In this document: positions 43,290-52,516 of the stretch, in pieces
Layout: each line of letters starts with the position of its first letter
Position numbering within the stretch: the stretch's first letter is position 1
Source of the DNA: Hydra vulgaris
Lineage: Eukaryota; Cnidaria; Hydrozoa; Anthoathecata; Hydridae
Assembly: GCF_038396675.1 (NCBI RefSeq)
Contig: NC_088931.1
Location: 73,045,001-73,109,000 of the forward strand
Length of the DNA: 64,000 nt
Direction: 5' to 3'
The notes under the pieces: model-generated
The model's input: the letters and a program-made list of their open reading frames with translations, nothing else
Told to the model about the DNA's origin: nothing
Database searches by the model: none
Position numbers and translations under genes: made by a program

Positions 43290-46969
<3,680 letters not shown>

Positions 46970-47500
46970 CAGGGGCGGACGCAGGTTTTTAATTTCCCCC
47001 GTCAAAAAAATGCGCCTTACGCCATGTTGTAAGTGACGCAACTACGCCCACAAAGCAAATAGAAAAAATGGGGGGGGGGGAGTAAGGGCGGATCCCGACC
47101 ATGTAGTAAAGGGGGGTGGGCAAATTTTTCTTTTCGTTCGATCCAAACGATTAAAGGGGGCGATATACAGGTTTAACAGGTTTACAGATTTACAGGTTTA
47201 ACGATTTTTATACAGGCAAGCCCAAAAAAAAGAATTTAGACTACACAATTTTATGCCACTTTTAAACAGCATACCAAATTTACTTACGTTTTTACAAAAT
47301 GTTATTATTAAAAAAAACATTTAAGGGGGGCCATCGCTCCCATAGCCTGCCCGCTATGTATCTCCTAAATCCTCCTGCCTTTGGGCTAAAGGATTTAAAG
47401 GGATTTTCTTTTTGCTATTTTATTGAGAAGCCCATATCTTAGTTTTACTTTGAAACTTTTTTTATATATAAATATATAATAAATATATAAACCAACAAAT

Positions 47501-47569
47501 GATTGTTTCGCCCAATATCAGGGCTCATCAGCATGTCTAGGAATATATTTATTCCGGACATGGACAATC
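47501..47569 (-). ncRNA. Hammerhead ribozyme (stem III open)
   Basis: Read on the minus strand: GATTG (stem III 5' strand), TC, then CATGTC (stem I, 6 bp, pairing with GACATG) around an inner hairpin GGAAT / ATTCC, then CTGATGA, stem II GCCC / GGGC with loop TGATATT, GAAA, and CAATC closing stem III (5 bp). All core bases (CUGAUGA, GAAA, GUC at the cleavage site) are present. Cleavage is expected between minus-strand bases at 47563 and 47562. Stems I and II are closed and stem III is open. It should self-cleave. Such ribozymes are known in Penelope-like elements and other retroelements; here it lies between the hAT stop codon (48123) and left terminus. Confidence 0.9.
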
Positions 47570-48122
47570 GGAGAAAGAAAAATTTAGCACTGAAAAGACA
47601 AAGACAAAAATACAAATGGATTTAAATACATCGTGAAATAAAAAGATATATATATTCTTATATAACAAGATTAAAAAAAAAAGACATACCAAGTTAAGCC
47701 TTAACAACAAGAAAGAAGATCATTTTTGATCAAATAAAAAGAAAGCTAATGGTTTTGACAACTACAGTAAAAAACTGATTTAAATGGCACAAAAACTTAT
47801 GAATGTTATTAGGTTGATTGAGAGAAAATTTATTGGAAATAATTTTTTTAATTTTTTATTTTGTCGCTAAATTAGAAAATGATATAAAGAGATGGTCAAA
47901 AAGAGATGGTTAACGTTTGCCTGAACTTTGACCACTAATCATATAGTTAATCCTAAACAAAAGTATGGGGTTACATTTAACCTGTCCTGTTAAGGACACC
48001 ATTGAAGTCTTGGCCTTTCCAGGGGTTTCCATGCCTATTTGTTAGCTGTTATATGAAGAGAGGTGATAATAGACAAAAATTTCTAAAGTTGTTGGTATGT
48101 ATTAGAATAAACAGTATAGACA

Positions 48123-51100
48123 CTAATAATTGAAATCAAGTCGTCTATTTTTTATAGAAAATCTATTGATAACATTATCAATACATGGAACAATTTCTTG
48201 ATGGATATACATTAATGCCAAACTGTTAAGTCGATCTTCTGACATTGTTGTTCTCATATAGTCTATTAACCGACGCATAACAGAAAAACTTCTCTCACAC
48301 TCACATGAAGTAACAGGAAGTGTCCCAAGTATCCTTAAAGCTATCTTAATATTTTCAAATCCAGGAAATTATATCGATTTAAGAGTAAAAGATATATTGT
48401 CAGGAATAGTCCCAGAGAAACTTTCCCAGTATTTTTCCCAAAGAACTAGTTCCCCATTCAAGGCACTGATATTAGGGAAATCATCTATATAAAAATCACA
48501 GAATATTTCAAACTGCTTCCTCCAACACAATTGGGTTTTGGGTCTTTTAAGAAAAGAAATAATATTAAATGGAATAATTGATAACCCTTTATATGCAGCT
48601 ACAGTTTCTGATTTAAATCTTGTAGATATAGATGTAGATATATGATCTATAAGAGGGATAGTAACAGCTCTTTTAAAGTATTCTGAAACAGACTCTGATG
48701 GAACATTAAATCGATTTTTTTGAATAGAACAGGTTCTTGGTTTCAAAACAAAAATTTCAGCTTTACTTAAAAGCAAACATGCTGCTTCATAGCAGTTATT
48801 ATGAAAACTATCTATATCATTTCTGATGGAAATAAAAGTATTTTTAAGAGCTGTAATAAGATGCAAACCGTCTAAGATATCAATAGTTTTTGATTGCAGC
48901 AACCGAGTAACAGGTATAGTAAAATCAAAGACACGTGTTGTCACAACTAAGGTAAAGACAAATTGAAAAGTGCCAATGGAATTTAAAAAAGTAGAAGATT
49001 TGTTTTGTGTGTCTTTGTTAACAGAACTCTCAGGGGAAGCCATGATACATAAGGCATGGAAAATAGATAAATAATGTTCAAGAAAAGTGTTTAAACCATC
49101 TATACGCTCAATCCATCTAGTTCTACAGATATCTTTTAATTTTTTTTTATGCGTTTGAGGTTCACGCTCTAAAATGCTAGCTTCTAAAAACTTTTGACTA
49201 TTTTCTGAATAATTAAAAAAATAAGAAAGTTCGCGAACTTTATTAAAAACCTCTGCAAACTAATAGGACATTACACGATTCACAAACTGATATGTTCAGT
49301 CGATGGCTATGACAATGTGTATACAAAGTCTTTGAATTTATATTGAGAACCTGAGCAGAAAGACCATTTATATACCCAGAGACAGAACTGGCTCCATCAT
49401 ATCCCTGACCCCTACAGTTTTTTATATCTAGATTTAAGTTGCTTACACAATTTAAAAGAACATTAAGCAAATCTTTTCCTTTAACTCCTTCATTACAATG
49501 AATAAATTGAATAAAGTCTTCTCTGATATTGAGATCACTATCAACAAATCGTAAAACTAATGACATTTGCTCTTTAGTAGATGAGTCACAGGCTTCATCT
49601 GCAATTATTGAAAAAAAAAAACATTTTTGCGAACTTCAGATAGTATAGATACACTAATTTCTTCACCACAGCATTTAATAATTTCATTTTGTGAAGTCTT
49701 CGAAATGCAGGAGGCATTCTTTGAACAGTTATTAAGATGAGAGCCTAAAACATCATTTCCATTGCGTACAGCAAAATTTAAAAGTTTATTAAAACAACCA
49801 GTTCCACATTTCGAATATTCTCCAGCCTCTGGAAGATATTGTGAATCATCTCTGTGGCCTCTCAAAGGGGTATTGGTTTGACCGCAAAAAATTATAGCAT
49901 CAACAATAGGACGAAGTATTTGGCGATTTTTTATTATTTTTTCTTTTACATTAGTATCAATGATGACATTTATTGGTTGACTTATGCCTGAGGAATGACT
50001 CGAAAAAATATTAAAAACAGGCATAGTAAATGCATGTAAACCATTTTTAGTTGACTCATGATTTGAAAATGATCTAATAGCATCAGACCATTTATTGAAA
50101 GGCTCCAAATACAAATGTGTTAACTTACATGATCTTAGTTTGAATTTATTGCCAAATAATACACAAGATAAACAAAATGCACCATCAGTACTTTTAGAAT
50201 ATCTCAGCCAAGAAAACTCTTTCAACCAAAGATATCTAAACAGACGACCAGAATCTTTTGGGAAAATGTAATCTTCATTAGGAATAAACATATTTTTAGT
50301 TATTAAAAAAATTTCAAGGTCAGTTAAAAATTCAACCTTTTGTCTAAAGAAAGCACCATCATTTTGCTCAAAAGACTGGAGAGCATTTATTACTTCTTTA
50401 GGTGGTAAAATAATGTTCGAAAGGCATTCAATATTATTATTATTATAAAAATTAGGTACTTTCCTGATGCTTGAAGATTTTGTAAAAAAAGATTTTGATA
50501 GAACAGTCCTTAGATGTCTTTGAGTGAGAAGAAACATCTTTACTTAATGTTAATGATTGAGAAGATGTTGTCAATTGAGAAGAAGACATTGCTAATTGAG
50601 AAGAAAATCTATTTGATTTTAGAATACAAGATGTATTTTGTAAGATTGCATTAGTGGGTTCTAAGTCTGGGTTTGTTTTATGAAAGAATGTAAGGATAGA
50701 GTAGGGCTTTTTATTTGGATTTTTGGCTACTGTGCTGGGTACAATTGTAGCAACTTGATCAATGGTGGTCTGTTTTGTATCTAGAAATTTATTAGGTGAC
50801 AAGACTGGCAGCAACTTTTTCGAAATTATTGTTTCTGATTTACTGGAAAGTTTACGCTTTTTAGGAATAAAAATTAGTGGGACATAGTGATTATGCTGAA
50901 ATGTACCGGACTGAAAATTCCCATCATAACAAAACAAAATGTAAAATGGATAACAACATTTAATGGGAGTACGTGGTGAGATCTCTTGGTTAAAAAATAT
51001 TTTATACTTTTCAACACCGAAATCTGGGTAACAGGAAACAATATTACAAGAAAGAACTGATGATAAACCTAACAAACATAAAAAACCAGCCCATTTTTCT

Positions 51101-52022
51101 GTGCTCTCACAGTTTGCAATTGGTTCAGCTTTAATAATATTATTATTTTCGAAGCCAGAATCTAATGCAGAATGAGATACTGACATACACAACAAACTTT
51201 TGAGATTAATAAAATGAGAACTATAATCAGAAAATATTTTTGAAAATAAAGGATGCTTACAGTAATAATCAGCATGTGTATAAATTTCAAGGGACGTTAA
51301 AACTCTTAACACATTCATCAGTGTATTGTCAGCAACAAAAAATAATGATGCAGAGCTGTACATACAACTTCCAGATGCTTCAGACCTTAAGAAAAAAAAT
51401 ATATATTTACTTCATGTTTTTAAGAGCTAAACTTCTTTTATCAATAAATTTAAAATTGAGTAAAAAATCTTTGCTTTTTGAACAAATTCATAAATCAAAT
51501 CAATAGTCAAGAATTCAGACAAACCAACTAATGATTTTGACATGTAGGAATATAATTTATACATCATGAACATATTATATACATACATGTCAAAATCATT
51601 TGACGGTGTTGACACTTATTAAATGTTGATTAGTCAACGAGTGTAATTTGTTATAGATTAGATTAATACGGTATTAACAATAAATATTTTTACAAAAAAG
51701 TATTAAATTTTGTGTTAAAACATATTAACTAATTGTAATAAAATACAATAAGATAATTATTTTTGAAAAAAAGTAAAGTGACTTACCTTAGAGCAATACA
51801 ATGCATTTTATTGTCTTTTAAGTAAGAAGGGATACAAACTTCGGCACATATATTTCTTCTTATTGTGCCATCAATATATCGACTGAAAAGACCTTCGTTA
51901 CTAACCCTTTTGTTATTGTTGTAAATAAATGTATCCAATAAAGTTTCATAAAATGTATTTAAATCGACAAGATTATCGGTTTTAAATCTTTTAAGTACAT
52001 CATCAATCAAGTTGTAAGCCAT
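48123..52022 (-). pseudogene. OTU-like protease + TTF finger + DUF4371 + hAT dimerisation transposase
   Basis: Exon 1 (52022-51787) ends at a consensus donor (AAG|GTAAGT). A 401-bp intron ends at 51386 (TTTTTTTTCTTAAG acceptor). Exon 2 runs to 48123. Residue order: OTU-like region with SEASGSCMYSSAS (Cys86) and FQHNHYVPLIF (His243/His245); a Ser-rich linker; a TTF-type finger (FRYLWLKEFSWLRYSKS, FCLSCVLFG, SFSNHESTKNG); DUF4371 (GTGCFNKLLNFAVRNG, ADEACDSS, CRGQGYDGASSVSGYING, THCHSHRLN); and the C-terminus LPVTSCECERSFSVMRRLID, stop at 48123. DUF4371 plus hAT is the ZMYM1-like arrangement; the OTU domain at the N-terminus is unusual. Breaks: frameshifts near 50500, 49610 and 49270 (the first two at homopolymer runs) and a stop at about 48370. 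Otherwise well preserved. The protease role is inference. Confidence 0.83.
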
Positions 52023-52139
52023 GCTTAAACGTTAAAAATTTAAGGAAATACTTTGTTTATAGAAGGGAGTTCTTTGAGTTACTTGAATTCTTTTAAGTTG
52101 TTTATCGATCTTTGCAACCAATCAAATTACTGCTGCAAA

Positions 52140-52390
52140 TGCTGCAAAGGATAGTTTACACTAAACATGTTGTTTTTTTTAAACGAATCAGATTGTTACT
52201 TTTAATAGCGTAAACCAATGAACTTATCCAATTTTCTCATATCCTGCAAAGTAGAGTTTACATTAGCAAGTTTTATAAAATAGCTTTCTCATATCCTGCA
52301 AAGTATAGTTTACATTAGCAATTTTTATAAAACACTTTTTCAAACGTCCGCAAAGCATAGTTTTCACTATAAACTTTATCTAATTATATT
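52140..52390. repeat. 52-bp direct repeats upstream of the OTU-hAT gene
   Basis: ctcatatcctgcaaagta starts at 52236 and again at 52288, and a diverged third copy (tcaaacgtccgcaaagca) starts at about 52340. A partial word (gctgcaaaggatagttta) lies near 52147. Period 52. The position just inside the element's right terminus fits subterminal transposase binding sites. Confidence 0.8.
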
Positions 52391-52516
52391 TTCTAACAAA
52401 AATATATATATCGGCAATTAATATTAGGCGGGCGTTAGACGTCATAATACATATTTTTATTTTAATTTTTTTACCCCGTCACTTGCAGCACTTGACGGGG
52501 TTTAAGTCCGCCCCTG

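Follow-up and report, generated by a model that had tools for sequence, protein, structure and literature searches.

The 64,000-nt stretch of Hydra vulgaris DNA analysed here (positions 73,045,001 to 73,109,000 of contig NC_088931.1, hereafter the window) carries a hAT element of 5547 bp at 46970..52516, which reads on the minus strand and is bounded by the target duplication ATATA. The left terminal inverted repeat, which forms the 3' end on the sense strand of the transposase, is CAGGGGCGGAC (46970..46980, plus strand) and the right one is GTCCGCCCCTG (52506..52516, plus strand); the CAGGGGCGGAC repeat is found at both ends of the element. The transposase gene region occupies 48123..51363 on the minus strand, with a frame that is interrupted in the window copy. 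Its stop at 48123 agrees with the frame ends in other copies, and its upper bound of 51363 was set by the methionine that starts the frame of copy L012. In L012 the frame is open over 1078 amino acids and contains DUF4371 (PF14291) and Dimer_Tnp_hAT (PF05699), both above the cut-off, and thus encodes a hAT transposase with the C-terminal dimerisation domain. Among the 15 copies with both ends, the target duplications match at 5 bp in seven, are ambiguous within TA repeats (allowing 5 bp) in four, and match at 6, 7 or 8 bp in three, and one copy matches at no length. Families of hAT elements with 5-bp duplications have been named hAT5 (PMC12730594), and the present element, with duplications mostly of 5 bp, is hAT5-like. 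The insertions of L010, L011, L013, L017 and the window copy lie in TA-rich repeats, a possible target preference. Beside the hAT element, a separate ORF at 44377-45675 on the minus strand encodes a DDE_1 / HTH_psq transposase, which we take to be pogo or Tigger-like.

Descriptor, fold and covariance model locate a type III hammerhead ribozyme motif at 47501..47569 on the minus strand. It has the same orientation as the transposase gene, some 550 nt beyond the stop of that gene and some 530 nt short of the element terminus. Read from 47569 to 47501, the minus-strand letters are GATTGT, C (followed by the predicted cut), CATGTC, C, GGAAT-AAATAT-ATTCC, TA, GACATG, CTGATGA, GCCC, TGATATT, GGGC, GAAA and CAATC, in the hammerhead order of open stem III, GUC, hairpin stem I, CUGAUGA, stem II and GAAA. 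Stem III has 5 bp plus the core U-A pair, stem I has 6 bp and stem II 4 bp. Since the open stem is III, the ribozyme belongs to type III, and it has the CUGANGA and GAAA cores, an NUH cleavage triplet and all three stems of that class. The UC of the GUC triplet lies at 47563..47564 on the minus strand, with the predicted cut between 47563 and 47562; this position, 3' of 47563, is presumed from the hammerhead consensus. Stem-loop I (47532..47562) consists of 6 bp, a C/UA internal loop, an outer 5-bp extension and an AAATAT loop, and in the window copy it holds an AATAAA (47553). It is followed on the same strand by the CUGAUGA catalytic core (47525..47531), stem-loop II (GCCC-UGAUAUU-GGGC, 47510..47524), the GAAA catalytic core (47506..47509) and a conserved, partly GU-rich 3' flank, ATTTGTTGGTTTATATAT (47483..47500). 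A sequence-only reading of this DNA had proposed a complete minus-strand hammerhead, with three stems, both cores and GUC, placed between the stop at 48123 and the left terminus on the strand of the gene. The structure is borne out by the sequence, the fold of the isolated RNA and the descriptor, and the placement by the element termini at 46970 and 52516.

As an isolated RNA of 75 nt, the hammerhead is the minimum fold (-22.1 kcal/mol, z -3.5 against shuffles). The minimum fold of a 321-nt RNA is different: stem II and the stem I hairpin are kept, and competing pairs take up the strand of stem III as well as some of the core. When searched with a strict descriptor of type III, which demands CUGANGA, GAAA, UH and no stem shorter than 4 bp, the window gave a single site, and 60 windows simulated with an order-1 Markov model gave none. 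At gathering thresholds Rfam gave no match anywhere in the window. At loose thresholds RF00008 (Hammerhead_3) aligned to the core with 19.1 bits and an E value of 0.23, under a gathering score of 48.5, which is a library cut-off and neither a structural nor a biochemical feature. The low score is probably due to the long insertion in stem I, where 21 nt remain unaligned compared with 3 in the model. With a covariance model made from copies of the hAT family, whose training set includes one copy identical in sequence to the window ribozyme, the ribozyme scored 106 bits and the rest of the window at most 10.7. A covariance search over the window upholds the hammerhead with the family model but not with RF00008 at its gathering score. 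Searched genome-wide, RF00008 gave no matches, and equally none in control genomes, which makes that search uninformative; the core letters of the ribozyme had no exact match in viral contigs and prokaryotic genome contigs.

Directly 5' of the transposase frame there is a long imperfect hairpin (AATGATTTTGACATGTA ... TACATGTCAAAATCATT) at 51511-51611 on the minus strand. It was matched in 14 of the 21 copies of lineage A (window included) and in none of the four upstream pieces searched from lineage B (both lineages are described below). In a targeted alignment to the ribozyme minus core this hairpin scores 55, just short of the best of 1000 shuffles (55.4). When the element was scanned, the score was 27, with a 95% null of 29, and a second ribozyme at the 5' end is not claimed.

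The ribozyme has a fixed place in the hAT family. A 421-bp query gave 40 scored places among 130 candidates, all 40 of which were read, window included. With the ribozyme itself as query (75 bp), 40 places were scored among 111 candidates; all of these 40 fall in hAT copies, and the 13 that were new were all read. Both queries, together with L070, which was found by its transposase, yielded 54 copies, and the ribozyme region lies within hAT sequence in 54/54. Seventeen of the 20 copies taken in about 10 kb align through to the end of the 3' terminus. As 53 of the 54 copies either are the window or were found with the ribozyme in the query, two ribozyme-blind tests were made. In the one, a query with just the 251 bp on the 5' side of the ribozyme yielded 40 scored places among 89 candidates, and 40/40 had the ribozyme region in an intact or decayed state. 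Of these places 36 were copies already known and four were new, all four with the ribozyme region; L074 is nearly intact (89 bits), and L075 and L076 are decayed (52 and 40 bits). In the other test, 33 of the 47 transposase places at 48-100% identity had the ribozyme region downstream, and none was seen to lack it among the places read there. The 33 places comprise 30 by position plus L071, L073 and L075; the piece read for L072, one of the other 14, starts just 3' of the ribozyme position and is uninformative. The transposase-found copies outside the covariance model scored 99.7 (L070), 95.1 (L073) and 89.3 bits (L071). In total, 60 copies have the ribozyme region inside a hAT element.

The state of the ribozyme varies among these copies. 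The strict descriptor matched 35 of the 54 copies scanned and failed in 19, and the core is unchanged in 45 of the 53 extracted copies, or in 47 of 53 if GUU and N7 changes are allowed, which we take to be variants permitted by the hammerhead consensus. Many single copies have a broken ribozyme, which is what one would expect of dead copies. In copy L044 about 26 nt are inserted into loop II, and L077, a lineage B copy found by the blind query, has lost 13 nt including stem II, with the remainder of its ribozyme intact. There is one ribozyme in the window and one at each positive locus. The only direct repeat around the ribozyme (47300-48130) is one 14-nt tandem, away from it; no frame of at least 100 amino acids overlaps 47037-48368, and no reverse transcriptase or GIY-YIG ORF lies there. 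A nested retroelement was rejected on the lack of flanking direct repeats and the fact that no A or B copy was seen lacking the block. The features of a Penelope-like element or retrozyme are also missing, with no tandem or dimeric ribozyme units and no matching ORF. The sequence-only reading had left room for two origins, capture from a retroelement and a genuine part of the hAT. Comparison with the other copies supports the latter, and the pattern expected of the former, with sister copies free of the ribozyme and a nested retroelement as its carrier, was not found.

The copies fall into lineage A, near the window, and lineage B. The DNA identity of lineage B is 80-86% over the 421-bp query and 79-87% over the transposon in L049, a B copy that aligns through the transposase, and its protein identity, measured in those seven B copies among the 54 that gave a transposase match, is 48-79%. 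At least one copy of lineage B, L034 with its upstream L051, is a deletion derivative without most of the transposase, in which the ribozyme block is kept. By eye, L031, L037 and L041 have the upstream junction of L034, and in these four (L031, L034, L037, L041) the ribozyme block is kept, with private changes. The transposase query also finds families at 38-46% amino-acid identity. In the distant sister families (three copies at 46%, two at 39%) 0/5 had a hammerhead between stop and terminus, within a sample of 1.9 kb at the 3' end only, where the best score with filters off was 9.6 bits (E 0.7); the terminus ATCCGCCCCTG is present in all five. A loose regex match in L065 was rejected; it lies beyond the terminus and, by eye, is without the stem I hairpin. 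The comparison with sister copies thus gives a divided picture: all A and B copies read carry the ribozyme region, but the more distant sister families do not have the ribozyme in the five 3' ends read. Its probable history is a gain in the common ancestor of A and B, or else a loss in the sister families.

A passenger sequence would be expected to change like its flanks on every branch, and internal and terminal changes were therefore compared. The main tree was built from the flanks only and holds 41 of the 53 extracted copies, the 12 copies L053-L064 being excluded; it is also without L044 (loop II insertion; unextracted) and L071-L077 (found later). On this tree the ribozyme (69 sites) has 5 internal-branch and 53 terminal changes, and the flanks (298 sites) have 112 and 297 (Fisher P=0.0011). 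The terminal rates of ribozyme and flank do not differ (P=0.087), whereas the internal rates do (P=8e-6), with about five-fold fewer internal changes per site in the ribozyme. If the upstream flank is the sole comparison, the same tree gives P=0.008, and for stems and core (43 sites), with 1 internal and 30 terminal changes, P=0.0012. Moreover, the ribozyme is the least-changed 69-nt window on the internal branches of the aligned 3' region: the minimum over 180 overlapping windows outside it is 13 internal changes, compared with 5. These five changes suit the fold, as they comprise C-G to U-G, U-A to U-G, an unpaired C that became U on two occasions and the loss of one loop-closing pair. A repeat with IQ-TREE gave 6 internal and 51 terminal ribozyme changes (P=0.008), with P=0.023 against the upstream flank only and P=0.006 without L070 and L052. 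Also with IQ-TREE, lineage B plus the window was not significant (P=0.16), and lineage A alone had no power (P=1).

MK-like tables showed no effect (P=1.0 and 0.64), with L053-L064 aligned to an upstream flank that is largely absent in them; the tables were set aside because these copies are mostly without aligned flank and were chosen by ribozyme similarity. The tree copies except L070 were found with ribozyme-containing queries, and the near-free terminal decay argues that this choice by similarity did not make the pattern. Base pairs changed on both sides amount to 0/21 (25 distinct sequences, whose stems hardly vary), so the fold rests on constraint and covariation gives it no support. In addition, conservation continues into the block immediately 3' of the ribozyme, with one internal-branch change in the 20-nt bin 47497-47478, and the ribozyme alone does not account for this. 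The pattern of change points to purifying selection, and suggests that it acted on the ribozyme while the element was mobile; having changed much less than its surroundings, the ribozyme seems to be a functional component rather than an accidental insertion.

AATAAA signals occur upstream of the ribozyme at 47860 and 47834 (291 and 265 nt before it) and downstream of it at 47424. Given the two upstream signals, the mature mRNA may end before the ribozyme. As a group, hAT-hAT5 elements have been reported to be expressed in particular Hydra cell populations (PMC12220107). From the sequence we infer that the element, when transcribed in sense, would give an RNA that folds and cuts itself after GUC (C at 47563), and that the cut would part the transposase coding portion from all downstream RNA. 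Its most likely use would be to limit transposase output and to stop read-through from the element end into the host. If the downstream AATAAA is used, the cut would strip the poly(A) tail, leading to less transposase; if an upstream AATAAA is used, a co-transcriptional cut in the trailing transcript could aid termination before the element end. We consider it rather probable that the type III hammerhead is a built-in, selectively maintained part of the hAT5-like element, which would cut the sense RNA 3' of the transposase and so limit transposase or read-through. We also incline, with somewhat more reserve, to the general proposition that a eukaryotic cut-and-paste transposon uses its own hammerhead on its sense transcript, to control dose by RNA alone or to terminate transcription.

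Other explanations of the conserved block have to be weighed against a built-in ribozyme. The palindromic stretch might act at the DNA level, as a transposase-binding or end-recognition site, with the hammerhead consensus kept for another reason. It is known that hAT transposases bind subterminal repeats, the GACATG arms are seen again in the near-5' hairpin, the conserved block extends past the ribozyme, and L034 (upstream L051) retains the block without much of the transposase. However, a protein site would have no need of the hammerhead core and stem II, both of which are among the conserved letters, and sister families with a nearly identical terminus manage without the block, and we regard a DNA-level role as unlikely. 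The roughly five-fold deficit of internal changes, at similar terminal decay, speaks against a frozen passenger, that is, a piece of a retrozyme or Penelope element that entered the common ancestor of A and B and was inherited without function. The lack of direct repeats flanking the ribozyme does so too, as does its type III architecture, compared with type I in animal retroelements. This origin, which we hold to be quite improbable, would agree with the occurrence of animal hammerheads in such retroelements (PMC7229834; PMC6155905), with the borderline resemblance of the near-5' hairpin to the ribozyme minus core, and with the lack of the ribozyme in the sister families read, by which a single gain is possible.

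It is very improbable that the ribozyme serves an RNA-borne stage, whether by ligation of the cut end into a circular molecule or by supplying a retrozyme-like RNA. Circular RNAs have indeed been linked to those plant retrozymes that carry type III hammerheads (PMC4918200; PMC7229834), but a unit circle requires two cuts and there is one ribozyme per locus here, and the terminal inverted repeats and target duplications indicate DNA transposition. Finally, a chance resemblance to the hammerhead, with which the missing Rfam match at the gathering threshold would agree, is scarcely credible in view of the complete core, the empty result for the 60 simulated windows and the constraint across lineages.

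The reading of the ribozyme as a built-in part of the element has a wider meaning. A DNA transposon has no RNA intermediate, and a type III hammerhead kept by selection therefore calls for a different use, which could be the control of transposase expression or transcript termination. If this is true, self-cleaving RNA would be a working part of a class II element. Furthermore, Hydra is experimentally tractable and its transposon transcripts have been recorded, which makes cleavage, transcript ends and dosage directly testable.

Among the titles and opening parts of abstracts listed from the open-access literature, a scope outside which most subscription papers fall, there was no hammerhead in a hAT or other cut-and-paste element. 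The element shares hAT domains, terminal inverted repeats and mostly 5-bp duplications with the hAT5 group, but has a ribozyme, of which the available part of the hAT5 description makes no mention (PMC12730594). According to the available text of the hammerhead literature, animal genomic hammerheads are mostly of type I and in retroelements, and type III occurs mostly in plants (PMC7229834; PMC6155905; PMC3088659); type I hammerheads have been reported in cnidarians (PMC7229834). The comparison with retroelements drawn in the sequence-only reading needs correcting in one respect: the present hammerhead is of type III, and those of animal retroelements in the available text are of type I. The hammerheads of Penelope-like elements, Terminons and non-LTR retrozymes in animals have, as here, the core within a mobile element; they are of type I and often tandem, whereas the present one is of type III, single and in a cut-and-paste element. 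RF00008 (Hammerhead_3), from plant satellite RNAs and plant LTR retrozymes, has an open stem III, the same core and a similar loop II that starts with UGA; the present ribozyme differs from it in its animal host, its longer stem I, its single copy in a DNA transposon and its score of 19.1 of 48.5 bits. The discontinuous hammerhead in the 3' UTR of mammalian Clec2, as described in the available text (PMC6155905), has a similar type III arrangement in a 3' UTR, but it is split and belongs to a host gene, whereas the ribozyme in Hydra is compact and belongs to a transposon.
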